Source: Zopfochytrium polystomum (Eukaryota > Chytridiomycota > Chytridiomycetes > Chytridiales > Chytridiaceae). Taken from it: a DNA stretch of 64,000 nt. The notes under the pieces are model-generated. The model saw only the letters and a list, made by a program, of their open reading frames with translations. It searched no databases and had not been told where the DNA came from. The stretch lies in assembly GCA_025765615.1 (NCBI GenBank), contig JAIVFJ010000041.1:124001-188000 (forward strand), written 5' to 3'. The translations under genes were made by a program, and so were the position numbers. Positions 7,041 through 64,000 of this stretch are shown one piece after another; the stretch's first letter is position 1; each line of letters begins with the position of its first letter.

Positions 7041-7164
7041 GGGCATTGAGTTTATCAATATATATATTATGATCTCCTTCTAGACTTCTAAATTTAGACT
7101 TCTACTCAGTGTCCTCAGTCTCCTTATCACACACCTTCACGGCATTAGCTTATTTTTTCCCCAA

Positions 7165-22169: not shown

Positions 22170-22201
<32 letters not shown>

Positions 22202-25912: not shown

Positions 25913-28777
25913 CTAATACAAGAAGCAGCGGTCGCTGTCCGGGGGGCTCATGGGCGACCCGGGTTTGCATTTAAACGCCTTGGCAAAGTCCGGTGAGTTG
26001 GCCAGAGCTCCGCGGATCCGGACCTCGTTTGGCGGGTGCGCGTCGTCTTTCAACTGGATGTGCCGTTCGCGGAAAATGGCGATGGGGGTTAGTGAGTGGG
26101 GTTCCACATATGATTCGTGGAGAAAGAAGCAGAGAAAAAATCTCCCATCCTCACCAGGAATCTTGTTTGCGCATAATCGGGAACGGTGCACCAAGTCTGC
26201 CCAAACGCGACAAAGAACGCCTGCAGCGGCGTCCACCCCTCGAATCCGGCCGAGCGGTCGTTCTCGGTCTCCTTGACGCCCTCCAAGTTCCGCCACGCCT
26301 GCAGCGCCACGCTCAAACCGCCGTTGTCGGCAATGTTCTCCGAAACGGTGCGGACGCCGTTGACCGGCTTGGTCCGACCGTCCTTGAACGCGACAACGTC
26401 GTACGCCCCGTACTGCCGCTCGAAGCAGCCCGCTTGCGCGTTAAACCGCGAGTTCGACTCGGCCGACCACCACGGCTGCATAATGCCGTCCGCGTTGATT
26501 ATGTGCCCGTGCGCGTCGAACGAGTGCGTGATCTCGTGCCCGATGATGACGCCAAGAGACGCGTAGTTCATCAGGTCCGGATTGAACGCGCTGAAAATCG
26601 GCCGCTGGATAATGCCAGAGTTGATCTGCACCTGCACGTAGTCGCTCAGGTGGAACGCGTTGAGCTGCCACGGAAACCCGAAAAAGAGCGTGTTGCGCTC
26701 GAGCGGGCGGCCGCGCTGGTGGATCGACCACGCGTACTCGGAATGTGCGTGCACCTGAACCGCGTTCTCAAAGTACATGGACGGCGAAATCGATAGGTCC
26801 GAGTGGTACGCGTCGATCTGGTCGGCGTCGCTCATCCAGTCGGGGTACCCAACGATGCGTATTGTGTTGTCCAGCTTTCTGAGGGCAGCAGAGCGGGTCG
26901 CGTCGTCCATCCATGTGAGCTTGCTAACGATCTCTCGGTACGCAACAAACAGGCCGTCAATCATTTTCGTCGCGGCTTTTCTTTGGGTTTCTGAAATAGG
27001 TTTTAGGAATAGGTTGAAAGACAGGAAAGTAAACAGCAGCACAAACCATTGAAAGCGTATCTGTTAAATACATGACCAGCCAAATAGTTAAGGTGTACGC
27101 CCATTTCTGCGACACAGTCCACTTGAAATATCTCAGACTTGTCATCATTCTCTTCGTCCACAGTGGATTGTACCGCATTTGTCCATATACGTTGTGCCCA
27201 TAGATTAAACCATTTTCTACCAAGCTTAGAGTAGTGAGTCGTGGCGAGCCGCCACAGCGCGATGTAGGACATCGCCTTTCTGTCGAACTTTGCGATTGCT
27301 GTCAATGTCTTAATCCATGTCCCGCGGTCTCCCCAAAAGTAAATCTTGTCGATTCCTGTCAAGTTCAGGGGCTGAAGGTATTCGTTCCAGTCCATTCCTG
27401 TTTTCTGCGATAGTTCCCATAACGACATCCGCGAAGACCCTGCGTCCGCCCAGAGGTTCGCAGAGCTGGCATGACGGGTGAACGATCGTCAGTATTATAT
27501 TTAAATGTTTTGGGTACGAACTTTTGTGTCTTGATGAGCGAAATGGTCATCTTCTCCACCTTGACTATCCACTCTGCGATACTTTCCAGAGTTGTGTCGG
27601 GAGGAATCGTCAAGATGCGGCGGTCTACAAAGGGCTTCAACGCGCGGATCACCGTTTTTACGGTCACATCGTAACCCGTCGCTGGGAAAAACTGCAGCCG
27701 CAAATCGTTGGGATCCTCGTTCTGGACACGGCTGTAGCTTGTCTTGAACAGGAAATACACAGCCTTCGAATTCATCTTCCCGAATGCCGAAGTGAACGAT
27801 TGCTTCTCAAATAAAGTGTTGAATTCTTTGGCGAGGGGGACAATCGGCTCAAACCCGCGCGCGTTAATAGTTTCTGAATCGAGACAGGAGCGGTAGTAGT
27901 TTATTGCCTTCGCAAAGACTCGACGTTCTGCTGGTGTTTTTGATATCTTGTCCTGCCTTTGGCTGAGAATTTCCTCCATCAGTAGCTTTGTGTGGCGGTC
28001 AGAATGTTTTGAGAACCCACAAGAGACACAACTCACTGTGTTGGTTGTCTGCATAAGCTCGAGTGTGTCCGCGTGAGGAACATCTTCGTACTTTTGGATG
28101 AACCCTCCGCATGCGTATTGGTAAAAATCTTCGCATGGGTCGACGGACTTGTTTAACCAGCTGAGCATCCGATTGGGGCCAAGAATGTGTGGGAACTCTC
28201 TGCTGATGTAAGGCTGGTAAGCTTCGTCTCGTCGTTCTAATGGCGCTGAAAAGGAATGTGAGCCAATAATCTGATCAAAGCGTTTTAGACTCTTACGTGC
28301 ACCGTGAACAGGAGGAGATATTTGGGCAAGAAGGAATAGTGCGGATGCGGCGATGAGAAGAATGGAGGACGAGAGGGTGGAGTGGAGGAGAGAGTGGCTT
28401 TGAGCGAGGCTGAACGAATTTGGCAAAGACTGTTGGGTGCGTTGCCGTAGACTGAAGCATTCCGGCAGATCGCATGGAAGTAGACGGCTCAAGGCAGGAG
28501 AAGGCGGTGCCAGCAAGAAACACCGTGGCCGTGTTCGTTTCGGCCTGCCCGACGATCTGGCTTCTTGCCGTGGTGGTGGCATCTCTGGTGGTCGCAAACC
28601 TGTGGGCGTTGGCGATCGGAGCGGACTTAGCGATGCTATCATCACCGCCTTCGCTCTCCTTCGGGCTGTTGCTGCTGCTGCCGTTGTGACCGTTGGCGTA
28701 GTAGTTGTTTGACTGGCCTCTGATGCTGCTGCCGCCAGCGGCTGCGCCCACCAAGTCCGTTGCCGTTGTGGTGCCAT
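25913..28777 (-). CDS. M13 zinc metallopeptidase (neprilysin/ECE type)
   Basis: This is a type II membrane endopeptidase with its catalytic domain outside the cytoplasm. The start at 28777 (MAPQRQRTWW) gives a long Ser/Thr/Ala-rich cytoplasmic segment; the same frame is open further upstream to about 29041. A transmembrane helix (SSILLIAASALFLLAQI) follows, then the M13 N-terminal signature SVDPCEDFYQYACGGF. The catalytic core has LNAFHLSDYVQVQINSGIIQ, the zinc motif HEITH in VIIGHEITHSFDAHG, and ENIADNGGLSVALQAW, which carries the third zinc ligand Glu and the Asp. The C-terminal FAKAFKCKPGSPM ends RCFLY-stop at 25915-25913. All catalytic residues are present. At least seven exons. Confidence 0.9.
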
Positions 28778-28878
28778 CTGGGCTGAGCTGGGTGGGCAGT
28801 GTGTCTTCTTCTCCCTCTGGCTGCAATTGCTCTCTGTCTCGCACACATATGCCCCACACACACACACACACACACACC

Positions 28879-28915
<37 letters not shown>

Positions 28916-29535
28916 TGGTTCTGTCTCTCCGCTCTCTGTCTCTTGCTTAGTCGTAATCGGTGGCACAAAACAAAGCCCCTCACATTTTTCTATTTTTTTT
29001 ATTATTTTTGAATGAGGCGGACGTTCCCCCTCTAGCTCCATGCACTACCTCAATGCAACACAAATGACGGCTTCGCCAGTGCTCGAGGTTACAATTTCTT
29101 TAATACGCATCTCCGATGCGAAACAATTTAATTCGTTGAATTACTTCCGAACGGACGAGAAGACGGCGGTGGTAGGGCGACCCATCCCGGTTTGTTCCGA
29201 CTGGGCTGAGTGGACGGAGCAGCCTAGCCGCGAGAGCATGTCATCCAGTCCGCAAGCATGTCCACCACTTCGTGCGTGACGGTCTGGTAAATCTCGACCT
29301 CTTCGTTTGCTGCAGCTCAGTTACATTCAAGCGGTGCCGTCCGTGCCACTCGACAGCGGTGGCTGCTCTCGCGTTATTTTGTGGATATGAGAGTAACGTA
29401 CTGACGAGCCGTCGAAGAATTACTTCCTATCATTACTCTGAGAAGGGCGCATGACATCTCGATCTTTCAATACGGCCTCCACTGCCGCCTCGACAATTTC
29501 TGGAAGATCCTTGCCGGTCCTTGTCACGCAACATC
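28778..29535. other. Intergenic region with CA/CT repeats
   Basis: This divergent promoter region lies between the M13 peptidase and GAA1. It holds (CA)n at 28854-28877 directly followed by (CT)n at 28880-28915, close to the peptidase start. Short open frames on both strands show only repeat-encoded Thr/His or Ser/Leu runs. No RNA gene was seen. Confidence 0.5.
28854..28915. repeat. Compound (CA)n(CT)n microsatellite
   Basis: About 12 CA units are followed by about 17 CT units with one interruption. It lies in the leader or promoter of the M13 peptidase gene. Polymorphism there could alter expression, but that is inference. Confidence 0.9.
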
Positions 29536-41005: not shown

Positions 41006-43196
41006 ATGCAGCGGCGATCGCAACCGCAGAGACCCAGCCGGAATCTGTACCATCTCATTGACGTAGACTTGTGAGGTTCATTCGCGTTTCTCACTTTCAA
41101 ACGTAACACCGTCTCCTGGACCCCACATTTGGTTTCTGCGTCCTGTTGTAGGTATGCCTCTTCTCCTCCGACGTATCAGCAGAATCGCGCCGGCTCCATT
41201 GGCAGCCCTCAATCCCAGCGTACGCGATCATCTGTGAAACCACCGCAGCGGACCACCAAGACCGCCCAGAAACTCGTCGTCTTCCCCTCATCCCAACAAC
41301 CGCCTCTTCCAGCTTCGGCAGGCCCATCGACCGCGCCAGATTCAGTGCTGCAGCCCAACCTCCGGACGCCTCCACAGGTTCCAACCCAGAGTCCTCCAGC
41401 CCCGGCAACACCTTCCGGTGACTTCGATCCTTCAAGTGCCATCGCGCCACCCAATCTCTGGGAATGGACTCTCGACGGACCGGCCCCCTCACCGCCGCAC
41501 CCTCCACAGCGTGAGCCGTCCGGGCCTCTGACAGATCACTCGCCTCAACAGCAACAGCAGCAACAGCAGCAACAGGGGCAAACTGACGCATATGACGGCC
41601 TCGGCCGCACCGACGCCGAGCGCATGCCAAAGAACAGGCGCACGGACCTACCGCGTATGACGTGCTATTGTGCAGCAGATGCGTACGACCTTGCCGCCGT
41701 CAGCGGGTTTCTGACAAAGCGGCACATGGTTGATCCGCAGCTGTACGACGAGTGTCTGTACGTGGTCTACGAGCACGGAAGGAACGTGGGCACGGGGACA
41801 GGGGCGAGGAGGAGGCGGAGGATCGCAAAGGGAGGGTCTCTCGGGAGCGTCGCTGGTGCCACCGCTATGCGTGTACCGCAGCCGATCGGGCACCAGCAGC
41901 AACTGCATCATGTTGCTAGGCGCCCGTCGGCGACGCAGCAGCAGCCTGTCAGCCCCATGATTGCGACGTCCCCGTCGGGCACGCGGGCTTCGAGCCCGAT
42001 GATGCAGGAGCAGAGTCTGCGTCGGCGCAGTAACGTCGGGCTCGATGAGGAGAACAGCGGGCTAAGATCCGTTCGGTTTTCAAGTGCGTCGCTGTTCGAA
42101 GTGGGGCGCGCTGCTTTGAATGGTTCGAGTTACGGCCTCGCTGAGACTCCAAAATGGATGGGACGGAATGAGGTTTTCGTCTTCGAATACGGCGTCATCG
42201 GTGAGTTCAAAGGTGTCCCCCAAAACGCGCGCGTAGTTACTTTGGTCCCCATCCACCTCAGTCTTGTGGAATTTCTCGGAAGAGGAGGAGCTGTCGTTTC
42301 TTTCTACTTGAAGGCCTTCGCTACAAATCCGAGAGTGCTCGGCGACATTGAAGTGGAGGACTTTCACTTTCAGTACGACCTCGTAAACCCCGACCAGCCA
42401 CGAATCTTCAACGACATGATTACATTGAAGAGCGGCAACCCCCTTGTCAAACTCACAATTTCCCATGGTGTCGCTCAATCCGCCTAAGCTTGCCCACTTT
42501 GAAAACATCATGGACGAGGAGATCGAGTCGTCCACGCGATTGCCAAAGATGATGGCCAAGTATGGAGAGGTCAAACTACGGCGAGAAGATGTTGTGAAGG
42601 TCGTTGGACGCCTTTTCCGGTAGGAGGATGTTTTGGACTGACAGCAGTGGGAATGCAAGTGGGTATGTTTTCCCTGACGGCTTCGACACAGGTTACGGGT
42701 AAACGTGAACCTAATATCGAATGTTTTGGACACGCCGGAGGTGTGTTCTCTTCTGGTCGCATTCATTCGCCTCTCCCATTTGGTTTAAACTTAACAATTC
42801 GAGCAAGCTCTTTTGGTCGGAACCGGAACTAGAGGGTCTTTACAATGCTATACGAGGTATGTGTCCTTTGCAAAAAATAGACAACAAGCTTACCCCATCC
42901 GGTCCAAAATCGGGTAAAACAGTAGGATACTTGGAAATTTCCCAGCGCGTAAAGCTCCTCAACAGTCGCGCTGACGTCATTGGCGATACCCTTGCCATGC
43001 TGACCGAACATTTGAATGGAAGTGAAATGACATTTATAACCTGGGTCATCATCATTTTGATCATAGTGACAAGTGAGTTGGATCAATCCCTGCACTCCGT
43101 TCAAACGGGATTTTCTCATGAAATGCAACAGGCTCCATTGCGGCAGCTGAGATTTACGTCAAAGTGCTAATGACGAATGCTGGGATGGAGAAATAA
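41006..43196 (+). CDS. RMND1/RMD1-family (DUF155) membrane protein
   Basis: This is a DUF155 protein of the RMND1/Rmd1/Sif2 family. Exon 1 (41006-41070) joins in phase 2 to the main exon at 41150, giving VDLYASSPPTYQQ. A Gln/Pro-rich N-terminal region precedes the DUF155 core: MTCYCAADAYDLAAVSGFL, LYVVYEHGRN, NEVFVFEYGVIGEFKG, DIEVEDFHFQYDLVNPDQPR and IFNDMITLKSGNPLVKLTIS HGVAQSA. Later exons give DEEIESSTRLPKMMAKYGEV, VVKVVGRLF, RVNVNLISNVLDTPE, FWSEPELEGLYNAIR and LNSRADVIGDTLAMLTEHL. A C-terminal membrane helix (TFITWVIIILIIV) and AAAEIYVK end at 43194-43196. A stop-like TAA at 42485-42487 is bypassed by splicing. The long disordered N-terminus and lack of an obvious transit peptide favour Rmd1/Sif2 over mitochondrial RMND1. 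Confidence 0.87.
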
Positions 43197-44546: not shown

Positions 44547-47500
44547 CTAGTTTCCTTCACCCAAATGATGGTCCGCTCCCAACCACACCTCTGCTATCAG
44601 GAATATTCCCGCCCAACAGCCAAGGTACGCAAAGACCGCGCCAAACCAAGCCGCGCCGCCGTCGTACTCCAATATTCCCATTGCGATCACTGCGGCGGCC
44701 AGCACGGTCACCCCCCTCCCCACCCACCAGTGCATTTTGTCCCACCAAGGAATAAATGTCCTACCAGGACTCCAAAGCTTGTCGGACACAAACCCCAATA
44801 TAAGCTGCATTGGATAGAGAGCGAGCGCCAAGATCGTCCCCAATATGCCATGATTGGTGTTGATGAAAATGTATGGCGCGTCCCAAGACGCGACTTCCAC
44901 TTCGATCACTGCCAGCCCCGTAATCACAAGGGACCCCACGACGTAGACGAAGAGTGCCACGTGCAACTTGAACCATAGATGCCCGAGCCGATGCTTCATG
45001 TAGCGCGCAAGGAAAATCGCGAACGGTGGCACGCCGGCCCACGCCAGCGTCATGCACGCGCCGTGGGCAGTCTTCAGCATGTGCTGCCGCGCAGCCCCGT
45101 CGTCGCCGCTATCCGTCAATGCGTTCGCGCCAAGGAACCCCTGTGCTCCGAGCTCCAAGGAAAACGCGCCATACACTTCGTGCTTCGTGAAGGACGAAGC
45201 CGGGTCGTCCACTCGCGCCACCGCCCCCAGCTGCGACGACAGCCCGTAGATGAAGTGCGTCGCGTCGTTGGTAAGAATCGGCGCTGCCGCGCTGCCCAAC
45301 GTTGCGTCCACGTCTACCATGGGCCGCATAAATGTGAACACGATGTTGCTGGTCGGGAGGATCGTCGTACTCGGGAGCGGCTGGCTAAGAAGGATGAATC
45401 CTTGCGTCGTGGCCATGGTCGGCATCGCGTGGCTGGCTGCGCCGGACCGAAGGATCCGCTGCGACACCGAGACACCGCCCGCAGAGTTTGGCCACGCGAC
45501 GTAGAAGGTGGCGCCCTTCATCAAACCCCCGACCGGGCTCACTCCCACGGAAGCCCAGGATTTGGCGGAGGACTGCACGGTCATGGTGACGTATCCTGGG
45601 TTTTTATCTCCGTACGTTCGGTTTGTGTAAGCAGTGATGCAGATCGAATTGCTCGGAGTCGATGCAAAACATGTTGCTGTTCACCGTCGCGTTGACAGTT
45701 CCAGTTGGAATCGCCAAGACAGCGCTGCTCGTCGGCGTAACGCTCGTATTGGCGGACTGATAAGCGAAGAGGTTAACTTGACCATTTCCACGGTCTGTGT
45801 GCATCGCAATCCCTGATCCTGCAGAATCAGGGTTCGTGGGCTTTGTTCCAGTGTACGACCATATGATCGATGTTGCCTCATCCGTAGTCGAAACAGGGAG
45901 CACACCTTTGGTACTATCGCCTTTCATGGGAAACTTTAGCGTGCACACTAGAGAAGAAGTGCTAAGAATGGAAACACTGGATGGCACGTCCCACACTTGT
46001 TGGAATCCAGCGGTTGCAGCAATTTGCGGCGCCCCATACTGCGTTGCAGTGCGCTGGGACACCACTGCACCGCCGGTTGAGTTTTTCCAACACATGTATA
46101 TGGTTGGGCCAATCATTGTCAAGCCACCGACACCGATAGCCGCCCATCCCGCAGCAGCTGACTGGATGGTCAAGGAGACGGTCCCGTCTGTGACGTTGGG
46201 AACAAAGCTTCCACAAACACCGGAACCGCTCGTGTCAGAGCAGAAACGGGCTTCAGGAACCGGCTTCAGAATACCCGTCGTGAGTTTCGTGGTGCTTGAC
46301 ACTATGGGTTCTTTTGGACCAGCTTGGCCGGTGAACGCAAGATTTGTGAGGTCCACGCTCATCACGCCCTTCTGGCTGTGCATAGAGAAGGACTGCAAAA
46401 GGATTGTTTCCAGAAGTGACCGCCGCTCCTATACCCCAGATAAGCTTTGTTGGTCCAGTTAAAAATAGTTGAGCGCTTCCTCCAGTCGACGCAACTGCCC
46501 TCGTAAAAGAAAACGCCATGGTACTAGACTTCAGGATGTAGACTGACGACGGCACCGACGGCAGAAGAGCGAAATCCGTATTGCCGGTCACAACTTTCGG
46601 TAAAATGTGACCTGCAGCCTTGCGTTGGGAGCCCACCATGGAGCCGGTTGTGTTTACCCAGCCAACGTACATTGTTGAACCAGCCATAACTGAAAAGCCA
46701 ACACCAAGTGATGCCCAGCCGCCTGGTGGAACTCGACCTTGGATAGTTATTGTAGCGTACTTCGTAGTTGGATTGATTTGAAATGTCGCACAGAATGTGT
46801 TGATCGAGTCAGCGCACTTTGTAGTGTGTGGAAAAACGGTCCATTCGGGTGTTGGGGTCGCAGACGGCACTGCGGTCACCACAGCGGTTGGAGTTTTCGT
46901 CAAAGTGGTGGAGGCTGTGGAATTTTGAGCGGCAATCGCAGCCCAGACAGCAGATGAGAACGTCAGGTCGAATAAAAGAATTGACCGGCTTTCGTGCCTC
47001 CCAAACTTGGCGTCTGGAGCATCCCGAAATAGTGGGGGCAGTGAGCTGCCAGCCACAAGAAAACTGGTTGGCCCAGTCTCTGACACTGGAACGATTCCGT
47101 CTCCCTTTACTGGTCGCCGGACAGAGAACACAATCGACGAGTTTGTGCGAGTAGCAATACCAGCCGGAAGCCTCGACCGATCAAATTGCGGGTTGCTGTC
47201 AATGATCGGAACCATGTGCGTGCTGCTCGACCGTTGAGTGACCAAGTGCGTTCCGACAGACGTCTCCCATCCCAAGTAATACGTCGCACCAGTCATGTTC
47301 GGTCCAAGACCGACTCCCAACCAGCCGCCAAGTGTGCTTTCCGCAGTGATGGTAACGAAGTACGGAGATGCGGCATCGCGAATCACCGTCACGCAAAAGA
47401 ACCCGTCGGGCGTGCACGTCTGCCGAATAAGAACCGGGGAGCGCAGAAGCGTTTGTGGACGGAATGGCAGAGACTGTCGCTGGGAGTATCGTCACTGGCG

Positions 47501-50500
47501 GTGGAAGGAAGCTGCGTGTCGTCGTTAAGGACAAATTAAATGTCCCACGGGAGTCGTGATAGGCGAACTGACGACGATGCATTTGCAGGTGTCACTGGCA
47601 CGCTGTTGGATACGGCAGTAAATGAACCCCTTCGCTGCAGTCGCGAGATCGAGCGGAACTTGGAAGGCCATTGCAATGGCACCGCCGGCTGTGCTCAGCA
47701 GCGTGTTCACGCTCACGGGGATGTTCGCAAGCACTTTGAATTTAGACTGCGCTGTCAATGGCGGGTATCCCCACGCAGGAGCTTTGTGCTGCGACATGAT
47801 TGCAGGCATGCCGGTGGACGTTGCATTGTTGACCCAACCGACATACAGGTCCGGTCCGGCCATGGTGGTCCCGCCAATGCCAATTCCGACCCAGCCTGTG
47901 AACGAAGTTTGGACAACCACCGTCGCCATTCCTGTTGCACTGTTGCGAATGACTGCCACTGCCACGTCTGTGTTCGCAAATGTGTCGAAAGACACATTGG
48001 AAAGCACATACGCGTCGCCAAGCACAGCAACAGTTGTCGGAGTCGTTGTGGACACGGTCGGCTGGGTTGGCGTTGGGACAACTGTCGACGCAGTTGCTGT
48101 CGTCCCGATGACCTTCCACACGTCCGCCGAGAACGTCATGTCGAGAGTGAATATGACTCTGCTCTCATGCCGCGAGAACATTGCGTTCGGCGCGTCGCGA
48201 AAGATTGGAGCAACAGAGCTTCCCGCCACCAAGAATCCAGTCGGACCTGTCTCTGAAACCTCCACAATACCGTATCCTTTGACCGGTCGGCGGACTGTGA
48301 AAACAAGTGACTGAGTTTGAGCGTGGTGTGACGCCGGGCGGCAGGTCCGTCAGCGAAAACGATGGATTTGGGCTGATGATCGGAACCATCCACATTGTGC
48401 TCGACCGCTGCTGTGACAAGCATCGTTCCGACCGAAGACTCCCAACCGACGTAATGGGTTGCGCCAGACATGTTCGGGCCCAAGGCAACACCGAGCCATC
48501 CACCAAAGACGCTTTCTACAGTCAGTGAGATGAATGAAGGCGCGGCTGCATCGCGGAGAGCTGTGACGCAGAAGATTCCATCGGCTGTGCAGAACTGTCG
48601 GACAAGAACTGGCAGGACTGGAGCACTTGCATGGTGGCAAGCGCCGAAACGAGCGATGGAACGGTCGACACTGGCGGTGGAAGCGCCGGGATCACTGAGG
48701 TCAGGTCGAGGGAAAAGTTTCCCCGAGAGTCGTGATATGAAAAGATTGACGTCGAGACGTTCGGCATCATCGGGCTGCTGTTGGACACGGCGTAAATGAA
48801 TCCCTTCGCTGCCGTGGCAAGGTCGACCGGGACACGGAACATGACCAGTGTTGCTCCATTTCCTGTGTCTTTCAGGCGACTCACACTTGCCGGGAAGACT
48901 GCTCGGACGCTGAAGTTCGAAGCAGTTGCAGCGAGCGGAGGGTATCCCCAGGCCGTCGCTTTGTGCTGGGAGACGACGGCCGGCTGCTTGGTTGTCGTCA
49001 CGTTGTTGTTCCATCCAACAAACAAGTCTGGACCAGCCATCGTCCTTTCCGCCGATTCCAATGCCGACCCATCCTTGGAAGGGGGACTGCACGACAAAGG
49101 TTGTCATGCCAGAACTGTTCGAACGAATGGCTGCAATGTAGATATCGTTGTTTTTGAAGGTATCGAAATGCGACGTTGGTCAACACACGGGGTGCAACAG
49201 CTGTGGTCGTGGGCGTCAGCTGTGGGTGTTAGTTGAGTTTGCAGCATTGATGGCCGCCCAAACAGTTCGCAGAGAAGGTCAAGTCAAGCGAAAGGATTGA
49301 CCTGCTTTCGTGTCGTGCAAACTTCGCGTCTGGTGCATCTCGGAACAATGGAGGCAGAGAGCTCCCAGCCACAAGGAAGCTTGTTGGTCCGGTCTCCGAC
49401 ACTGGAACGATTCCATCTCCCTTTACTGGGCGACGAACGGTGAACACAATCGACGAGTTCGTGCGTGTTACGACACCAGACGGCAGTCTCGACCGATCAA
49501 ACTGTGGGCTGCTGTCTATTATCGGAACCATGTGCATGCTGCTCGACCTTTGAGTCACCAAGAGCGTTCCAACAGACGTTTCCCATCCCAAGTAATACGT
49601 CGCACCAGTCATGTTCGGACCCAGTCCAACTCCCAACCAACCGCCAAGCGTACTCTCCGCGGTGATGGTAATGAAGTACGGAGATGCGGCATCGCGAATC
49701 ACCGTCACGCAAAAGAACCCGTCGGGCGTGCACGTCTGCCGAACAAGAACCGGAAGCGCAGAAGCGTTTGTGGACGAAATGGCAGAGACTGTTGCTGGAA
49801 GTATCGTCACTGGCGGTGGAAGGAAGCTGCGTGTCGTCGTCAAGGACAGATTAAATGTCCCACGGGAGTCGTGATAAGCGAACGACGACGATGCGTTTGC
49901 AGGTGTCACTGGCACACTGTTGGATACGGCATAAATGAACCCCTTCGCTGCAGTCGCGAGATCGAGCGGAACTTGGAAGGCCATTGCAATGGCACCGCCG
50001 GCTGTGCTCAGCAGCGTGTTCACGCTCACGGGGATGTTCGCAAGCACTTTGAATTTAGACTGCGCTGTCAATGGCGGGTATCCCCACGCAGGAGCTTTGT
50101 GCTGCGACATGATTGCAGGCATGCCGGTGGACGTTGCATTGTTGACCCAACCGACATACAGGTCCGGTCCGGCCATGGTGGTGCCGCCAATGCCAATTCC
50201 AACCCAGCCTGTGAACGAAGTTTGGACAACCACCGTCGCCATTCCCGTCCCGCTGCTGCGAATGATGGCCACTGCCACATCTGCGTTCGCGAATGTGTCG
50301 AAGGACACATTGGAAAGCACATAGGCGTCGCCGAGCACAGCCGCAGCTGTCGGAGTCGTTGTGGATACCGCTGCTGGCGTTGGTGTTGGTGTAACGGTCG
50401 ATGTGGCTGTCGACCCGATGGCCTTCCACACGTCCACCGAGAACGTCATGTCGAGAGTGAACATGACTCTGCTTTCATGCCGCGAGAACATTGCGTTCGG

Positions 50501-52869
50501 CGCGTCGCGAAAGATTGGAGCAACAGAGCTTCCCGCCACCAAGAATCCAGTCGGACCTGTCTCTGAAACCTCCACAATACCGTATCCTTTGACCGGTCGG
50601 CGGACTGTGAAAACAAGTGATGAGTTTGAGCGTGGTGTGACGCCGGGTGGCAGGTCCGTCAGCGAAAACGATGGATTTGGGCTAATGATCGGAACCATCC
50701 ACGTTGTGCTCGACCGCTGCGTGACGAGCATCGTCCCGACTGAAGACTCCCAACCGACGTAATGGGTTGCGCCAGACATGTTCGGGCCCAAGGCAACACC
50801 GAGCCATCCCCCAAAAACACTTTCCACCGTCAGTGAGATGAACGACGGAGCAGCTGCGTCGCGAAGAGCCGTGACGCAGAAGATTCCATCGGGCGTGCAA
50901 AACTGTCGGACAAGCACTGGCAGGACTGGCGCAGTTGCCGGCGGAACCGCCGAAACCAGAGCTGGAACGGTGGAGACTGGCGGTGGTAGAGCCGGGATAA
51001 CTGAAGTCAGATCGAGGGAAAAGTTTCCCCGAGAGTCGTGATATGCGAACATGGTCGTTGCGACCGTCGGCACAGTCGGATAGCTGTTGGATACTGCGTA
51101 CACAAAACCTTTGGCCGCAGTTGCGAGGTCGACCGGGACCCGAAATATGGCAAGCGTCGCCCCGTTCCCCGTGTCCTTAAAGCGACTCACACTCGGCGGC
51201 AACACGGCCCGAACGCTGAAATTTGAAACAATTGTCGCGAGTGGAGGGTATCCCCAGGCCGCTGCTTTGTGCTGAGAGACGACTGCGGGTTGCTTTGTCG
51301 TTGTAACGTTGTTGTTCCACGCTACAAACAAGTCTGGACCAGCCATCGTCTTTCCGCCGATTCCAATGCCAACCCATCCTTGGAAGGGGGACTGGACGAC
51401 AAAGGTTGTCATTCCAGAACTGTTCGAACGCATGGCTGCAATGTAAATGTCGTTATTCTTGAACGTATCGAATGCGACATTCGTAAGCACGCGGGGGCTG
51501 CTCGCTACCACAGCCGGGGGGACGCCGTCGGCCGTGGACGGTGTAGGAACCGCGGTCGTCGTCACGGTGGCGGTCGGCACGGCTGCCGGAGTGGGCGACG
51601 GCGGCCCGGCACTCGAACTCGACGTTGTGGCAGCGGCGTCCTGTGCCGCCGCGATCTTTGCCCACACGTCGGCCGGAAACGTCAAGTCCAGCGCAAACGT
51701 AGCGCGGCTCTCGTGGCGTGCGAACCGAGCCTCTGGCGCGTCGCGGAACAGCGGGGCGATCGAGCTGCCGGCGACGATGAACGCCGTCGGGGAGGTTTCG
51801 GACACTTCCACGGCGCCGGGCGCCTTGACCGGTCGCTTGACGGTGAAGACCAGCGACGAGTTGGCGCGCGGGGTGAGCCCCTTTGGAAGGTCCGTCTGGG
51901 TGAAGTTTGGCGAGGGTGACAGCATCGGGATCATATGCCCTGTTGAGTAGCGTTGCGACAGGAGGGTGGTGCTGTCGGAGGATTCCCAGCCGATGTAGTG
52001 TGTTGCGCCGGTCATGTTCGGACCAATGCCGACGCCGAGCCATCCGCCCAAAGTGCTCTCCACGGTGATTGAGATGAACGAAGGGGAGGCTGCGTCCCGA
52101 AGCACCGTCACGCAGTGGTTGCCGTCCGGCGTGCAAAAGTTGCGTACAAGCACCGGAAGGGCACCTGAGGCTTTGGGCGTTGCTGATATTGTAGCTGGGG
52201 TTATCGTCACCGTTGGCGGCAGGACGCTCCTCGTGGTTGAAAAGCTGAGTGAAAAGTTTCCGCGTGAGTCATGGTAACTGAATGGAGAGGATGGATTTGC
52301 TGGTGACGATGGCGGGCTATTGGACACCGCGTAGACAAATCCTTTTGTTGCCTTTGCGAGGTCCAAAGGTACTTGAAAGGCCACTGCAGTCGCACCGGCT
52401 CCCGCTGTCGGAAAACGGGTCACCGCAACAGGGAAATTTGCAATAACCTGGAACCAACCGACAAAAAAAATTGTTACCACCGTCGGTGGCGGAGAACACG
52501 AAGAGTTTCGTTACCTTAAAGTTGGGCTGCGAGGTTATGAGTGGTGGGTAGCCCCACGCAGCGGCCTTGTGTTGTGATAAAATCGCCGGCTGTCGCGTAG
52601 ACGTTGCGTTGTTGGACCACCCTACGTATAGATCTGGTCCAGCCATCGTCGTACCCCCGATCCCGATGCCGACCCAGCCAGTGAACGGAGTCTGCACGAC
52701 AAATGTCGCAAGGCCCGTTGAGTTGGAAAAGATCGCCGCAACGCTGATGTCGTCGTTCATGAAAGTGTCAAAGGAGGCATCGGTAACGGCTCGTCGCTGG
52801 ATTGCGTGGGCTGGAGAGAAGTGAGCACACCAGCCATGCGAACACGAAGAATCGAAACGCCTTCACCAT
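44547..52869 (-). CDS. Giant 13-DOMON cytochrome b561 protein
   Basis: This is a secreted-side multi-DOMON array joined to a cytochrome b561 membrane domain, about 2,700 residues. The ATG at 52869 gives a signal peptide, MVKAFRFFVFAWLVCSLLSS; one base too many near 52812 breaks the frame before the first DOMON. A 67-nt intron (GTAACG to TTCCAG, about 52515-52449) lies in DOMON 1. DOMONs 1-10 alternate type A (GGTTMAGPDLYVGW ... YHDSRGNFSL) and type B (GPNMTGATHYIGWES ... RHESRATFAL). DOMONs 11-13 are divergent. Every domain keeps one Met and one His at the places where CDH-type DOMONs bind heme b. The b561 part has five helices with His in TAHGACM, WFKLHVA, NTNHGIL and DKMHWWV. 49310-52448 is one open frame; 45650-49270 carries about a dozen one-base insertions. 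Likely role: transmembrane electron transfer. Confidence 0.85.
46950..51500 (-). repeat. 2.31-kb tandem duplication of four DOMON domains
   Basis: Two copies of a four-domain block (A-B-A-B) lie head to tail, about 51500-49260 (DOMONs 3-6) and 49190-46950 (DOMONs 7-10). Matching landmarks are offset by 2313-2314 bp, for example the GGTCCGGTCCGGCC string at 50161 and 47848. The copies are nearly identical at the nucleotide level over long stretches, so the duplication is recent. DOMONs 1-2 and 11-13 are outside the block and more divergent. Confidence 0.9.
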
Positions 52870-53566
52870 TTGAACAGATCGCTCCCGAGATTGCAGCCAG
52901 TCCCGCGATGAGAAGGCCGGGTCGAAACATTCGGCCGTCCGCATGATCGGTTCGCCGTCTCTTCATAGCGTATGTCAACGAGTTTCTGTTGACAATCTTT
53001 CAGTTTCCGCTGCATAAGAATATTCCGTTGAATATTCCGTTGTCCACTGCTGGTTCCCATGAAAGTTCAAGCACAAGTTGGCAACGTGGCTCCAAAACCA
53101 GCGATCGAATCGAAGTGTTCAACCAATTGCTTCAAAGGAATGGCTACCACAAACTACTTGTTACTGGCTTCAGGAGGCGAGGGAGGGGTAAATGAATAAG
53201 AAGAATCTTTGGCAATATTCAAAAAAAAGGAAGTGCGAGGCAAACGGAACAAAATAAAAAGGTGTCGACACATTGCGAAAGTCCAAAACTGCGCGGTGCA
53301 AAACAAAAAAAAAAACAAAAAACACGAAGATAACGATTTTGTGAGGGGTAATCGACGGATAAGATATTGACTGCTTGAAGTATGTCGCCTTAGTAGGATT
53401 GGATTACACCAACTCGCTACATTCATTTCAGCGATTTTGTGTCACAGCGAGGACAAACGCATGAAGCATTTTGAGGTAACGATAAGTAAATGAACAGAAG
53501 CAAAGGTGCGGGCAGTAAAGATAGCAATTATGGAGACCAAATACACTTCGCCGTGCTTTATCGTAG
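52870..53566. other. Intergenic region
   Basis: This 700-bp spacer lies between the DOMON gene start and the kinase stop codon. It includes A-rich runs near 53220 and 53308. Plus-strand frames across the kinase 3' end are antisense shadows. No other feature was recognised. Confidence 0.5.
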
Positions 53567-55281
53567 CTACCAGCCAAATACGCCGTCAACGCCAACCTTT
53601 ACGGCGATCGATCCTTGCAGCGGCATTGACATCCACTCATGCCGCAGCACTTCGTCCACAGATGCACGGTATGAAGGGTCCGGTGCCAGCATACGGTCCA
53701 GCAAGTCCTCGCATTGTGCTGTGCGACGAGAACGCAGTGCAGGCCGGCGCGTTCGCAAATTTTGCGGGGTATCCGGGAACGGGTGGTAAGATTCCTAAAA
53801 TTTTGCAGGAAGAGTTCGTTAATATGGCCAAAAGAGGGACACGGTTGACTAAAAAAACTTACCAATAGAACAAAAAGGAGGACGCCCAAACACCACACGT
53901 CGTGCTCAAAGCCACCATACATCTCCCCTCGTAAAATCTCCGGCGAAATGTAGGCCCGAGTGCCTGCGAACTCTTCGAACTGCCTGATCACTCTCTTTCG
54001 CGGTTGGGAGGCAGCCGCGGCCGCTATTGCGGTGCTGTTTCCAGCCATTGGGGCAACTGCAGGCACACCAACCAGTCCTGAGGCGACAGGACGGGCTGCA
54101 CCAAAATCAATCAGGCAGACACGCAAGCGAGCATCAACTATAACGTTTTCGTCCTTCAGGTCGCGATGGCAGAAGCCGCGAGAGTGCATATGGTTGATGG
54201 CGGCAGCAATTTGGGAGAAGAGGTGGCGAACAGTGGGTTCCGGGATTTGTGGGTTGCGTTCAATGCAATCAAAAAGGTCGTGAGAGGGGCGGCGGCGTTG
54301 AACAGTTGCAGATGTTGGGGAAGCAAAGGTTCCACTACGAAAAGACCTAGGACGGCGAGGCTCAGATGAAGGCTCGCCCGTTGTTGCCGATAATGGGAGG
54401 TGGCTGCGAAGGCTGCTGAGGTGGGCAAGACGTGCCGCTGCAAGGTCATTCGGATCGTGTGGAGTTGGTTTGGTGTCAAGAGATACATGACGACAATGCT
54501 TTGGGCTCTTTGATGGGGATGGTGGTGTAAGCGTGAGTGACTGAGGTCGTGCACGACGCTGTGGTTCAATTGGGCTGACAGCGTCCATCACCAGGTAAAC
54601 GAACTGGGAGGATCTTGGATTAGAAAAGTGGAATGCCAAACTTGGATGAAAGAGGCCAAAGCTCACCTTGCTATCCTCGTAAATGTCGTAAAACTTCACG
54701 ATATTGATATGGTCCATTTTGCGAAGAATGAAAGCTTCAATGGGTACCATTCGTCTCAGGCCCCGATCTTGCTTCCAGCCATCTGCAGGAATTCTGTCCT
54801 TGAACAGAAACTTGACCGCGACAACTTTGCGATCCGATCTTCTCATCGCGGCGAAAACAAAAGCGGAACCACCGACGCCGAGGGGGAACTTGAGCTGATA
54901 CTGCTTGTAAAACTCGGGTAAAAGATCGTAGTGAGGCAGTGTTGGCGATGTTGTGGTGGCCTTGAGGGCCCTTGGAGAGGGTCGCAGGGGGGCGGACGAA
55001 TAGGATTGGACGACGGCAGGGGAGGACGCCGCGAAGTAGTTTGAAAAGTGCTGAGCATTGCAACCATCTGGGTCCTCGCAATCGTCCACGCCATCGTCAT
55101 CGTCCTCGAGAAACTCGGCCTCCTCATCCGCACCTCCGTTTACTGTCGAGTCGGAATCGTTTTCGTTGGCGTCGCAGCGAGATTCGGCAGGGTCAGTCGT
55201 ATCCGAGCATTGCGTGTCGGCGGAGGTGTCCGAAGAAGGGGGCGAGATGGGACCCGCGGGTGCGGCCGATCTTGCTACCAT
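53567..55281 (-). CDS. PAS-kinase/CAMK-like serine/threonine protein kinase
   Basis: The ATG at 55281 precedes an acidic, disordered N-terminus (about 130 residues). The kinase domain shows the Gly loop LGVGGSAFVFAA, VAVKFLFKD (Lys), IEAFILRKMDHINIVKFYD (alpha-C Glu), a short intron near 54660-54600, and FVYLVMDAV at the hinge. An insert of about 110 Ser/Pro/Arg-rich residues precedes HDLFDCIERNP. Then come CHRDLKDENVIVD (catalytic loop), LIDFGAARP (DFG), AGTRAYISPEIL (P+1) and EHDVWCLGVLLFVLL. An intron ending TTTTAG near 53793 joins ESYHPFPDTPQNLRTR and CEDLLDRMLAPDPSYRASVD EVLRHEWM. HRDxKDENVI and the DVWxLG wording recall PAS kinases, but no PAS domain is present. It should be active. Confidence 0.87.
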
Positions 55282-56007
55282 CTCGGAGTTTGTCTCAACC
55301 GCTCAAGGGTTTGTTAAGCAAGTGCGGGGCCAATGGGAGGTAGTGATGTAATATAATGTAAAAGTAACGGGTGAAGGGGGGGAGTTTTGGTTTGGGGTTG
55401 GCCAGAAGTTTGGTCGAAGAGGGGATGATTTGATCGGTGGCCTGACCGACTGATTGATTGATGGTTGATTGGCTGCCTGATTGATCGTGCTTGCTGAAAC
55501 TTTGTGCGGAAAAAAAAAAAAAAAAAGGAAAGGGAAAACGAGAAAATGGAAAGAAAAGAAACAAAGGGCCAGAGACACAGGGCAAAGCAAGTTGGCCGCA
55601 GCACACAGCACAGAGCGGCCCCCTTTTCGCGCGGACGCTCACACGCTGATTGGACAGAGGCCTCGTGGCCGAAAAACAGTATTAATAACAAGTTCTAAAT
55701 ACTTTTGCTCGCATATAATAAAATATCGAAACCAGCACACACACTTGTTTACATGGAAGCGGACGAGAAGCGTGCCTGTGCCGCACACGCCGGACTCCTG
55801 CCTCGGATAACTGACTGACCGACTGACTTGCTACCAGCTGATCGATCTTTGAGTGGGAGAGTTTTCTTGACGCGCAGTCGTTTGCTTGGTTGCGTGTGCG
55901 AAGTGAGCCACGCGTTGGCGAAAGAAGCAGCAGCGCTTGAAGTGTTTGAACCACTGCCAACACTGAACCATGTGTCCGAAAAAGAGCAGCAGCAGCAGCA
56001 GCAGCCG
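55282..56007. other. Intergenic region
   Basis: This spacer upstream of the kinase gene contains an A-run at 55509-55526 and, further on, CAG units at 55988-56004. Short frames here are repeat-driven or antisense. It presumably includes the kinase promoter. No RNA gene was recognised. Confidence 0.45.
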
Positions 56008-58979: not shown

Positions 58980-59319
58980 GTGATGTGAGACTACACTGAG
59001 GTCTCAGTGATAAAGTCTAGGGATTTTATTTGCAAAAACAAGCGTGCCTGTCATAAAACTGCAAGGATCAGGACCACTATTATTATTCATGGTTCTTTAG
59101 TTTCCAAGGCGTTATCAAAGTGTATTTGCAGCTAACCTGTCTTTATTATTGGGCCCGCTTTTACTACTTTTGTCTTAACAGTTTCCATTGCACCAGGGTT
59201 TTCTCAACACATTTTCTTTTTCGGTGACTAACGGAGACTGTCTGACTGCCTAGGGATGGGGTGCCTGACAGGCTGTACCCCAAGCCTGCCTAATTTATTA
59301 TTTATTTTCAGCACTTGTA
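58980..59319. other. Region between two mariner-type elements
   Basis: This 340-bp, AT-rich stretch has no recognisable ORF. It may contain decayed 5' sequence of the minus-strand mariner remnant, but I could not align it. No terminal inverted repeat was identified. Confidence 0.35.
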
Positions 59320-60625
59320 CAAGGGGAGGACAAAAGTTTCCAGGCACCGCTGTGCCACCCGCCACTGCCAGCTCGTCGATCTGCACTGCCCCATTGACAA
59401 TCTCACCAAACTCGGAGCAATCGCCTCGGCATTTGACATGGGGACAGCAAAGAGAGTGAAGAATGATCATGGTGTGTGCAAGACGCTGATTGCGATGCAC
59501 AACAACGGGAAGAGCACCCGTGAGATCGCCAATGACACAACTGTACCGAAGTCAACAGTCCAGGATATAATTGCGCGCTATGAGAACACTGGCAGTCTCA
59601 CTCACCTGCCCTGTTCCAGACGGCCTCGCAAGCTCTCAGAGAACAATCGCTGTTATTTGGTTCGAGCTACAAAGGAATCTGCATCAAACAGAAGGCAAAC
59701 ACTTGGCGACCTTACAAATCAGTTGAATTCCGCTTGTGACGATCCTGTTTCAACGAGGACTGTTCGACGTGTACTTCACGAGGAGGGGATTTTCAACCGT
59801 CTTGCAGCCAAAAAGCCCTATCTAAAGCCAGAGTATCGACGTAAACGGCTTGAATTTGCAAAGGAGCATGTCAGGTGGTCCGTTGAAGAGTGGGAGAAGG
59901 TAATTTGGACTGATGAGGCCAGCTTTGAGACTGGAGCGCAGGGGCAGGTCCGTGTTTGGCGCTGTGCTGGTGAAAAGCTCAAACCAGAATGTCTTCAAGC
60001 AACAGTGAAGAGTGGCCGCCAGTCGTTCTCAATTTGGGCTTGTTTCCGCGGTTCGATTGCGGGAAGCAATGCATTCATTGACGGGCAACTGAACAGCTTG
60101 CAGTATATTGACATTTTGGATGGTCAACTTCAAGTCTTTATTGAATATTTGGATGAACAGAATGCCGACGAGGAGTTTCTTGAGAACAGCCTGATCTATC
60201 AGCATGACAATGCACCAGCTCACACAGCCCTGAAAGTTAAAGCTTGGTTCAAAGAAAAGGGCTTGCCTATCATGAACTGGCCCGCTCAAAGCCCGGATTT
60301 GAACCCCATGGAGAATCTCTGGGCCTGACTTAAAGATCTAGTATCAGAAGACCAACTGCTTGGCCTCAAGGTGTTGAAAAAGTCAGTTCGAAAAGCTTGG
60401 CAGGAAATTGAACCCCAGTTCCTCCAATCATTAGTGAAGAGTATGCCTGCAAGGATGCAAGCTACTATTGAGAGCGATGGAGGGCCAACAGACTATTGAC
60501 CAGAATTTCGAACCATCACGTTCTTTTTGCTTGAAATACAATTAAGTTTTGTGGAATTGGATGGCTCATGTTGAGCGAAATTTTGGTGGCACAGCAAGTG
60601 CCCAGAAACGTTTGTCCCCCCCCTG
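59320..60625 (+). mobile_element. Tc1/mariner DNA transposon, nearly intact
   Basis: The element is 1,306 bp long and flanked by TA dinucleotides at 59318-59319 and 60626-60627, the expected Tc1/mariner target duplication. Its ends are imperfect inverted repeats: the left end begins CAAGGGGAGGACAAAAG and the right end, read inwards, CAGGGGGGGACAAACG, with similarity continuing through GGCAC and CTGTGCCACC. It carries one transposase frame with a single premature stop. Confidence 0.87.
59438..60499 (+). pseudogene. Tc1/mariner transposase with one in-frame TGA
   Basis: The ATG at 59438 gives a 353-codon frame ending TGA at 60497-60499. The N-terminal HTH part includes LIAMHNNGKSTREIANDTTV and STVQDIIARYENTG; then STRTVRRVLHEEGI. 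The DDE catalytic domain has WEKVIWTDEASFE, IYQHDNAPAHTALK and WPAQSPDLNPMENLW, giving Asp, Asp and Glu in the normal Tc1 spacing. The only lesion is TGA at 60326-60328, directly after ENLWA, about 57 codons before the end and after all catalytic residues. A change from a Trp or Arg codon by one transition would explain it. Confidence 0.88.
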
Positions 60626-61353: not shown

Positions 61354-64000
61354 TCATCTCCCCCTTTTAGGCCTCTTCTGCAACTTGGTGGGGTACCTGG
61401 TCTTGAACTCGAGCAGAAGGTCTTGGCAGTGAGTGAGGTTTGACTCAGGCTCCCAGGTGTTGTCAGCATCTGAGTAACCTTTCCACTTAACAAGGAACTT
61501 GAGTGTTCTTCCAAACCACTTGGCATCCAAGATTTGTTCAACCTCAAATTCCTCTTCACCTTCTACCTCAACTGGAGGAGGAGGAGGAACAACTCTGCCT
61601 GGAATGGAATTGGCCACAAACTTCTCTAAAAGGCTGACATGGAAAACTGGGTGGATCTTCATGGATGCAGGGAGATCCAGCTTGAAGGTGACTGGATTGA
61701 TTTGCTCCAAGATCTTGAAAGGACCCAACTTGAGGTTGTCTAGCTTGGGACTTGGTCTTTTGGTCTGCAAGTTCTTCCTCAGAAGCCAAACTTGCTGACC
61801 CACAGCAAGGTCATGGTCCATTCTGTGAGTGTTGGCAAATCTTGAGGCATCTTCTTGGGCTTGCTTCAGGGTGGAGTCCAGGAAGGTGCTGATGATCTTG
61901 AGCTTATGTAAGTGTGAAGCCGCAGCAGGAGCTTGGACATTGGATAGGGTCTCTTGTCCTAGAAGATCTCCTCTTGGATTGAAGCCATAGGTTGCAAAGA
62001 AAGGAGATAGCTGGGTGCTTGAGTGGAGAGAATTGTTGAGAGCAAATTCTGCCAGTGGAAGGAGGGTGGGCCAATCATCCTGTTGATAGCTGACATAGCA
62101 CCTCAAATACTGCTCCAGAGTCTGGTTTGTTCTTTCTGTTTGTCCATCAGTCTGAGGGTGATAAGCAGTTGACAGTTGAGACTTGATTCCAAGGGCTGCT
62201 GTGAGTGCTTTCCAAAATTGAGATCTGAACTGAGGTCCTCTGTCACTGATGATTGACTGAGGCAGCCCATGGAGCCTGAATATGTGCTGCAAAAACAGGT
62301 CTGCTGTTCCTTGTGCATCTATATTCTCAGTGCAGGGGATGAAATGGGCCAACTTTGTCCTTCTGCAGATGACAACAAGGATAGAGTCAAATCCATGGGA
62401 TGGGGGCAGTTTCACAATGAAGTCCATGGATATTGATGACCAAGGGCTGATGGCAATTGGGAGGGGCTCCAGAAGTCCATAGGGCTTGTGTCTGCTGGAT
62501 TTGTTTCTTTGACAGGTTTCACAGCTGCTGACATAGTTCTTGATGTACTTCCTCATGCCTGGCCAGTAGAAGTCTCTGGAAACAAGCTCATATGTCTTGT
62601 GCTCTCCTGGGTGTCCAGCTGTTGCTGCATCATGCCTTGTCTTGAGTATCTCAAGTTTTTCCTCTTCTTGGCTGATTTGAATCTTGTGAGGCTTGGGGTC
62701 CTTGGAAATAGCATGGGCCCACACACTGTCAGGAAGCAATGAAAGGTGTGTCTTGGATGGTGGGGTGAAACCATCTCCCCCTTCAGGTGCAAGGTCTGTT
62801 CTTCTTGACAGGGCATCAGCCACAGTGTTAAGGTGGCCAGGAGAATAGCACAGCTTAAAGTCATACTCAGAGAGCAGTTCAGCCCACCTGGCATGCCTCT
62901 GCTTGAGCAACCTCCTTGCCCTGAAGAAGGTGAGGTTCTTGTGATCAGAATAGACAGAGATGCCTTTAGAACCAGCCAAGTAGTGTCTCCAGAATTTGAA
63001 TGCTTCCACAATTGCAAGCAACTCCTTGTCATGGACTGTGTAGTTACACTCAGCACTGTTCAGCTTCCTGGAGTAATATGCCACTGGATGCAGAGGAGCA
63101 GAGGGTTCCTGAGAGCTTGGCTGGGACAGAACAGCGCCAAGGGCATAGTCTGAGGCATCAGTTTCCAAGGTGAAGGGAAGCAAGGGATCCACATGCTTAA
63201 GGAGTGGTGCACTTGTGGTTGCTGTCTTAAGAGCTAGCCAGGCTTGCTCTGCTGCTGGGGTCCATTCAAACTTGGTGGTCTTCTTGGTGAGATCAGTGAG
63301 AGGCTTGGCTATGGCAGAATAGTTGGCAATGAAGGTTCTGTAGAAGTTGCAAAATCCAAGGAAGCTTTGAACATCCTTGATGGAATTTGGAGCCTTCCAT
63401 TCAAGAATAGTTTGGATCTTGTCTGGTGCCATGGAGATCCCTTTGTCAGACACAATGAACCCCAAAAACTCAATGGAGGTCTTGTGGAATTCACACTTCT
63501 CCAGCTTTGCATAGAGGTGATGCTGTCTGAGTCTCTCCAAGACAGTCTTGACATGTCCCATATGGCTTGCAGTGTCAGATGAAAATACCAGGATATCATC
63601 CAGGTAGACAATGACAAAAAGGTCCAGAATATCCCTGAAGATGTCATTCATCATGCCTTGGAAAATAGCTGGAGCATTGGTAAGTCCAAAGGGCATAACC
63701 AAGTACTCAAAGTGACCGTATTTGCATCTGAAGGCAGTCTTCCATTGATCCTGGGGCTTAATTCTGACCAAATTGTAGGCACCTCTGAGGTCAATCTTGG
63801 AAAATATCCTTGCATGGCTCAGTTTGTCCAGTAATTCAGAGATGAGAGGCAGTGGATAGCGGTTCTTGACTGTCATCTCATTGAGATCTCTGTAGTCCAC
63901 GCAGGGTCTCAGCCCCCCATCCTTCTTCTTGACAAAAAAGATGGGAGCTCCAGCTGGTGACTTGGAAGGTTGGATGAATCCCTTGTTCAGCATTTCTTCA
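61354..64000 (-). CDS. pol: Ty3/Gypsy chromovirus Pol (RT-RNase H-integrase-chromodomain), partial
   Basis: The frame is open to the window edge, so gag, protease and the 5' part of RT are missing. Visible in order: RT ([41 protein letters not shown]; active site YLDDILVF), RNase H ([50 protein letters not shown]), integrase zinc finger (GHPGEHKT ... CETCQRNKS), core DDE ([32 protein letters not shown]) and a C-terminal chromodomain ([32 protein letters not shown]). The stop TGA at 61356-61354 abuts the LTR. No frameshift or stop is present, so it may be active. Base use is more even than in the GC-rich host genes. Confidence 0.95.

Follow-up and report, generated by a model that had tools for sequence, protein, structure and literature searches.

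A 64,000-nucleotide stretch of the Zopfochytrium polystomum genome (the window, positions 124001-188000 of contig C41 in an 80-Mb assembly of 761 contigs) was found to carry a CYBDOM-type gene on the minus strand (52930-44547), consisting of an exon for a putative signal peptide, two short introns, and sequence for 13 DOMON units and a five-helix cytochrome b561. We think it reasonably probable that the gene encodes an expanded CYBDOM, that is, a plasma-membrane protein in which a flexible ectodomain string of 13 or more b-heme domains is joined to a five-helix b561 with two more hemes and exports electrons from the cytosol. The putative signal peptide, the 13 DOMONs, and the b561 on the minus strand had been reported in an earlier reading of the window (the original prediction) and were all confirmed here, but the assembled frame is not open.

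Results

DOMON units, predicted heme ligands, and the b561 end

For the count, a profile was made from DOMONs of this genome and two relatives, and it bore out the 13 units in the window. They are arranged as A1 B1, then A2 B2 A3 B3 twice, then C D E, and are followed by the b561 (Table 1). The best Pfam family for the units was CDH-cyt (PF16010), which scored above its cut-off. A Met and a His were found at the ligand columns in 13/13 window units (26/26 codons). In an alignment of 44 units, the Met column and the His column were each conserved in 43, the remaining row being cut off at that place. Both the alignment to 1d7b and the profile alignment set these columns against M65 and H163 of cellobiose dehydrogenase (CDH). 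At the other end of the protein, all four b561 His are kept and the five-helix core is present. By its domains and predicted ligands, the gene belongs to the CYBDOMs, and with Met/His ligands in every unit about 15 b-hemes are predicted (13 + 2), as had been expected. Predicted models agree with these assignments: the unit models matched the cytochromes of CDH and pyranose dehydrogenase, and the model of unit E with the b561 matched Dcytb and cytochrome b561 structures.

The spliced exon 1 encodes a hydrophobic N-terminus, judged by sequence to be a putative signal peptide, and a similar signal exon was found in a paralogue on contig C13. The start codon and both introns are the same in a second haplotype, contig C157. 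The A units after A1 do not have an intron at the site of intron 2.

No flavin (GMC) dehydrogenase domain was detected in any of the eight window pieces of the gene (Pfam, E 0.01). The CxxCH motif was absent from 10/10 pieces (the eight window pieces, C157, and C13) and, therefore, the gene does not encode a c-type nanowire. Several candidate matches were rejected. Pfam matches to TetR_C_18 and DUF2793 were below cut-off and were dismissed as chance, and a phmmer search of the long C157 frame against the PDB gave a chance match only, the profile search having performed better. VIA-align rows that fell on helical bundles (chemoreceptors, talin, and channels) were dismissed as common helical arrangements.

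A second haplotype and the number of repeat copies

Contig C157 is 98.3% identical to the window over 9.7 kb and is colinear with it through the neighbouring kinase gene. FTR1 iron permease matches are present on both contigs (C41:301033-302226, about 124 kb from the DOMON gene, and C157:101767-102961), as expected for homologous contigs. The C157 frame is open for 3,173 codons and holds 17 units, the first and last of them partial, before it changes 250 bases from the contig end, inside the repeat. About 3.8 copies of the 2.3-kb repeat, which has two copies in the window, are seen in C157 before the contig ends. The count of 13 is that of one assembled haplotype. On C157, an 18th unit begins after the 17, and together with C, D, and E its total would come to at least 21. 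A corrected assembly with only one to three DOMONs would have told against the original prediction; the opposite was found, since the cleaner haplotype has more units. These sequences suggest that the number of hemes probably differs between alleles.

Another possible explanation, to which we give a substantial chance although short of an even one, is that the copy numbers are an assembly artefact. Repeats would then have been either collapsed or multiplied, and the real number of A-B pairs would be different, perhaps equal on both haplotypes. Copies 2, 3, and 4 of C157 are only 1-2 substitutions from one another, which could reflect either a very recent expansion or multiplication during assembly. 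The contig also ends inside the repeat, and besides the paralogue on C13, the C-D-E-b561 end was found once in the assembly. However, 237 substitutions separate copies 1 and 2 in the window (2,225 bases compared) and 129 separate them in C157 (2,228 bases), which means that a minimum of two repeat copies (10 A/B units) must be real. A separate array of two-DOMON genes on contigs C37 and C216 also varies in number between haplotypes, which again speaks against an artefact.

The reading frame of the window allele

As assembled, the window does not encode a single chain, since its frame shifts repeatedly from about 49.26 to 45.6 kb. This looks like assembly error because the C157 haplotype is open, because the second repeat copy of the window differs from C157 by insertions only, with mostly synonymous substitutions, and because the same pattern recurs at the end of C157. 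The second copy has nine inserted bases in eight places (one place is two bases long) and no deletion. It also has 95 substitutions, which fall at codon positions 3, 2, and 1 in the numbers 70, 11, and 14; 74 of them are synonymous and none creates a stop. The final 280 aligned columns of C157 are likewise insertion-only (5 columns), and these insertions are why the C157 frame ends.

One observation tells against assembly error. A single inserted base is common to the second copy on C41 and the end of C157, and a real shared lesion would explain it too. If the frame changes present in the assembly were real, the window allele would make at most a secreted six-DOMON fragment without the b561, leaving only the other haplotype or the paralogue functional. 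We regard this as improbable, given the insertions without any deletion, the 74 synonymous changes with no stop among the 95, the same kind of difference at the C157 contig end, and the ligands retained in D, E, and the b561 downstream. Assembly error is, thus, our preferred explanation. The joined frame of array and b561 is open in the paralogue on C13 and broken in the window, and C157 stops before the b561. Taken from the two haplotypes and the paralogue, the 13-unit array and the b561 are likely to be one gene, which was the original prediction, but the window's own frame is broken.

A five-unit paralogue, duplication history, and selection

The paralogue (contig C13, 378622-382308) reads A-B-C-D-E-b561 in a single frame, stop included. 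It resembles the window gene in its signal exon, units A-E, and b561, with 50-52% identity in the compared units, and differs from it in having five units without the A-B expansion and a frame that is open to the stop. A midpoint-rooted tree, in which long branches were flagged, was built from 54 units (51 different) and included 8/13 window units, namely the unbroken ones without A1. Left outside the tree were window A1, A2', B2', A3', and C; the C157 units past copy 2; the Boothiomyces protein P0003 described below; the C216 genes; and short frames on C74, C536, and C2. Window A units grouped with C13 A, B with B, D with D, and E with E, each clade having support of at least 100/99. These clades suggest that the A-B pair multiplied to three pairs and that the four-unit, 2.3-kb block was then copied.

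The gene appears to have grown by A-B duplication and then A-B-A-B duplication under purifying selection. The ratio of nonsynonymous to synonymous substitution rates (dN/dS) was 0.10-0.11 when copy 1 of C157 was compared with the later copies on that contig; the later copies compared with copy 4 gave 0.21 and 0.36, from 4-5 differences only. Between haplotypes it was 0.21. Among A or B units within the gene dN/dS was 0.10-0.17, with dS of 1.5-2.9 (saturated). For B2 against C13 B it was 0.25, and for E plus b561 against C13 it was 0.26 at a dS of 1.8, the remaining comparisons with C13 being saturated.

Relatives and other DOMON/b561 genes

A search for other multi-DOMON b561 proteins found 7- to 8-unit arrays in Boothiomyces and Terramyces. 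With the C13 protein as query against 5.8 billion proteins, two matches were obtained among the 7,987 scored candidates sharing most words, and the b561 part of P0001 retrieved four proteins including P0001 itself. The long C157 frame had no homologue at E 0.001 among the 7,985 scored candidates sharing most words. These searches had candidate and length limits, and relatives may have been missed. Boothiomyces macroporosus HK103_003724 (P0001, 1522 aa) has seven units and a cut one, Boothiomyces sp. JEL0866 HDV06_005777 (P0003) seven whole units and a broken one, and Terramyces sp. JEL0728 HDV01_000668 (P0004) eight units. P0002 has four units, the first one cut. P0001, P0003, and P0004, all from Terramycetaceae (Chytridiomycota, Rhizophydiales), are entered as 'hypothetical protein'. 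Marker genes, together with these relatives in Chytridiomycota, point to a zoosporic fungus, probably a chytrid, as the source of the window: chitin synthase 2 gave 70 exon-wise matches in the genome (best 2.4e-177), although this family also matched in 4/14 bacterial controls, and radial spoke 3 gave two matches, with none in the 14 controls. Long DOMON arrays on b561 are, thus, already in public records without a name, and the window array is longer.

Like the window gene, the Terramycetaceae arrays consist of tandem CDH-cyt/DOMON units with Met/His followed by a b561; they are shorter, and P0001 is 26% identical to the C13 protein. The 18 units of P0001, P0002, and P0004 form one clade (100/99) apart from the 36 units of this genome, as placed by the midpoint root. 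The Terramycetaceae units pair by position between Boothiomyces and Terramyces, and the eight window units in the tree are not orthologous to them by position. The two kinds of array probably grew separately, and the unit tree suggests two or more origins of long b561-linked DOMON arrays among zoosporic fungi.

The genome of Z. polystomum also has shorter CYBDOM genes. The array of separate genes mentioned above (C37:184000-203999 and C216:37000-66999, haplotypes 97-99% identical) has frames of 629-718 aa, five on C37 and seven on C216, with two DOMONs each where counted (C37). Frames of 432, 437, and 465 aa on C27, C224, and C85 have one DOMON each and a b561-like end, recognised by eye and matched by PF03188 on C224. 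Together with the other genes, these give the genome CYBDOMs with 1, 2, 5, and 13 or more DOMONs. More b561 matches, some of them tandem pairs, were seen on C124, C14, C179, C222, C261, and C266, and DOMON-like frames of 401 aa (C2:115000-123000) and 172 aa (C74:32000-40000) were seen without an evident b561.

Table 1. Parts of the CYBDOM-type gene in window coordinates, with codon positions of the predicted heme ligands
Feature	Position	Strand	Predicted ligands and remarks
Exon 1, start codon and putative signal peptide MFRPGLLIAGLAAISGAICSNAHA...	52867..52930	(-)	Exon, splice sites, and frame identical in contig C157
Intron 1	52811-52866	(-)	gt-ag, 56 nt
Exon 2, first part of DOMON A1	52515..52810	(-)	
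Intron 2	52448-52514	(-)	gt..ag, 67 nt
Exon 3, remainder of gene to stop codon TAG	44547..52447	(-)	Frame changes at about 49.26-45.6 kb
DOMON A1	52214..52787	(-)	Met 52646, His 52273; split by intron 2
DOMON B1	51656..52153	(-)	Met 52015, His 51715
Direct repeat, 2.3 kb, two copies of four DOMONs each	51496-49272 and 49192-46956 (span 46956..51496)	(-)	89% identical
DOMON A2, repeat copy 1	50981..51487	(-)	Met 51346, His 51040
DOMON B2, repeat copy 1	50420..50917	(-)	Met 50779, His 50479
DOMON A3, repeat copy 1	49814..50317	(-)	Met 50176, His 49873
DOMON B3, repeat copy 1	49253..49750	(-)	Met 49612, His 49312
DOMON A2', repeat copy 2	48675..49176	(-)	Met 49040, His 48734; frame broken
DOMON B2', repeat copy 2	48110..48609	(-)	Met 48471, His 48169; frame broken
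DOMON A3', repeat copy 2	47499..48004	(-)	Met 47863, His 47558; frame broken
DOMON B3', repeat copy 2	46937..47434	(-)	Met 47296, His 46996
DOMON C	46370..46831	(-)	Met 46687, His 46380; frame broken near end; assigned from its order and visual comparison with C13 unit C, outside the tree
DOMON D	45742..46260	(-)	Met 46116, His 45801; groups with C13 unit D, support 100/100
DOMON E	45129..45680	(-)	Met 45521, His 45182; first residues in another frame; groups with C13 unit E, support 100/100
Cytochrome b561, five helices	44580..45104	(-)	His 206, 240, 277, and 317 of a 377-aa open piece

Neighbouring genes

A protein kinase gene lies just upstream on the same strand (window 53602-55302) and is common to haplotype C157. 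Farther along are a Tc1/mariner-type transposase frame (59294-60325) and a chromodomain Ty3/gypsy retroelement frame (61357-63999), and parts of window 61-62.8 kb do not align to C157. Other frames were assigned by Pfam to an EF-hand protein (7084-7797), a Tex/SPT6-like protein with HHH (21052-22637), peptidase M13 (26092-29044), and DUF155, RMND1-like (41075-42484). No redox gene cluster was seen around the gene among the 16 window frames scanned with Pfam.

Discussion

A proposed flexible string of predicted heme domains

In the mechanism that we propose, each DOMON would hold one b-heme between its Met and His, as the CDH cytochrome does and as the conserved ligands and fold suggest. By homology to Arabidopsis HYP1, the inner heme of the b561 (His 240/317) would be reduced by a cytosolic donor, ascorbate or erythroascorbate, and would pass the electrons to the outer heme (His 206/277). 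Unit E, adjacent to the membrane, could then accept the electron from the outer heme, after which transfer from unit to unit would occur by collisions of the tethered domains. Hemes distant from the membrane would be kept reduced and, within the wall or outside it, may pass electrons to Fe(III), Cu(II), quinones, or partner enzymes. The string would lengthen by duplication of the 2.3-kb four-DOMON repeat, a step favoured by the sequences, and the heme number would differ between alleles as a result.

The original prediction had suggested an extracellular electron wire. A rigid wire is not supported: the 16 linkers of C157 are 20-56 residues long with a Ser/Thr/Pro/Ala content of 63-75%, and in the predicted model the predicted local distance difference test score (pLDDT) of the A-B linker is near 30. 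These linkers, therefore, favour a flexible string that works by collision. Published systems offer two comparisons. A model of HYP1 has irons spaced about 23.5 and 20.9 angstrom apart (PMC10784544). In CDH, the flavin passes electrons to a docked cytochrome domain that is tethered by a flexible linker, with a closest edge distance of 9 angstrom against a 14-angstrom limit (PMC4507011).

Several points weigh against this mechanism and the gene model beneath it. The A-B linker is disordered in the model, and the models themselves are middling, with a mean pLDDT of 74.5 and a predicted template modelling score (pTM) of 0.48 for the A-B pair and 70.4 and 0.51 for E-b561; four other E-b561 models scored 51-58.5. 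In the window, PF03188 stayed under its cut-off, and a scan of C13 at E 0.01 did not report it. On no contig does one open frame run from the signal peptide through more than five DOMONs to the b561, since C41 is broken and C157 ends inside the repeat, and the protein is here a prediction from sequence and models. The need for the DOMON heme was untestable in HYP1, where ligand variants were mislocalised (PMC10784544). Lastly, PF01794-type reductases are also present in the genome, so iron reduction can do without the CYBDOM array.

Genome matches included two for the ALO family, 11 for FTR1, and 20 for the ferric-reductase/NOX-type PF01794. These genes are compatible with a role in metal reduction and do not prove it. 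A search for AA9 lytic polysaccharide monooxygenases gave no matches, but it gave none in the controls as well, and no conclusion on lignocellulose chemistry can be drawn from it.

The array could also serve as a redox reservoir and not as a conduit, each heme taking up its charge on contact with the b561 or with a soluble reductant and the units buffering charge or raising the local amount of reduced heme for partner enzymes or metals. The long flexible linkers fit this idea, as do the lack of any indication of docking between neighbours (A-B pair, pTM 0.48) and the different unit numbers of the assembled haplotypes, which are expected if dose outweighs order. We consider it unlikely, however, since the positional identity of A, B, D, and E is retained between the paralogues, suggesting that the membrane-adjacent units are not interchangeable. 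A scaffold or adhesin, with DOMONs that bind cell-wall sugars, a b561 that is mainly an anchor, and heme that is incidental or lost, would agree with the Ser/Thr/Pro-rich linkers, with 62 N-glycosylation sequons in 3,172 residues (C157), and with the description of DOMONs as heme- or sugar-binding (PMC10784544, citing Iyer 2007), but is very unlikely because the heme ligands do not vary among the aligned units, unlike other positions, which drift, and because all four b561 His are retained.

Comparison with known systems

CYBDOMs transfer electrons across plasma membranes, and electron export through a string of heme domains is the function that we favour here. HYP1 carries electrons between cytosolic ascorbate and outside acceptors (PMC10784544; for CYBDOMs also PMC10691727). 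HYP1, insect CG8399, and human SDR2 share with the window gene a Met/His heme DOMON followed by a b561 with four His. HYP1-type CYBDOMs, in contrast, have one DOMON as a rule, and only 19/888 insect CYBDOM hits have two (PMC10691727). Descriptions of related proteins usually give one or two DOMONs. The CDH cytochrome domain (AA8; 1d7b/4qi3) has the fold of the window units and their ligand pair, Met65/His163, but in CDH one cytochrome is joined to a flavin dehydrogenase, whereas here many cytochromes are joined to a b561. Among the open-access entries examined, mostly as titles and openings of abstracts, there was no account of b561 proteins with more than two DOMONs or of such proteins in chytrids. 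Two apparent exceptions were rejected: the words 'Eight DOMON' in PMC5501833 refer to eight proteins, and 'three DOMON' in PMC3204972 to three genes, not domains.

The predicted protein, thus, appears unusual among CYBDOMs in its heme number, in the apparent variation between haplotypes, and in its probably separate origin. We know of no larger predicted b-heme array on a single chain. Bacterial multiheme c-type nanowires of the OmcS type have many hemes in an extracellular array. The window gene is similar to these in having many predicted hemes in an extracellular array and differs in lacking CxxCH, in its predicted b-type hemes with one per domain, and in its flexible linkers. More tentatively, then, the gene might represent a eukaryotic extracellular relay made of b-hemes only, in which a b561 drives a flexible chain with perhaps as many as 20 cytochrome domains or more. 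The reach and capacity of the chain would be set by a coding repeat that is polymorphic in length and differs between the two alleles of one individual. Such a relay would be a counterpart of the bacterial multiheme arrays in function, not in ancestry.

Inside one genome, the predicted heme domains rose from five to 13 and beyond, and both states are at hand together with two assembled repeat lengths. Because short and long forms coexist, the effect of a longer heme string is directly testable. This bears on why some CYBDOMs carry more than one DOMON and would add a fungal example to the discussion of extracellular electron transfer over long distances. In Z. polystomum itself, the gene may encode a cell-surface electron relay of very large size.

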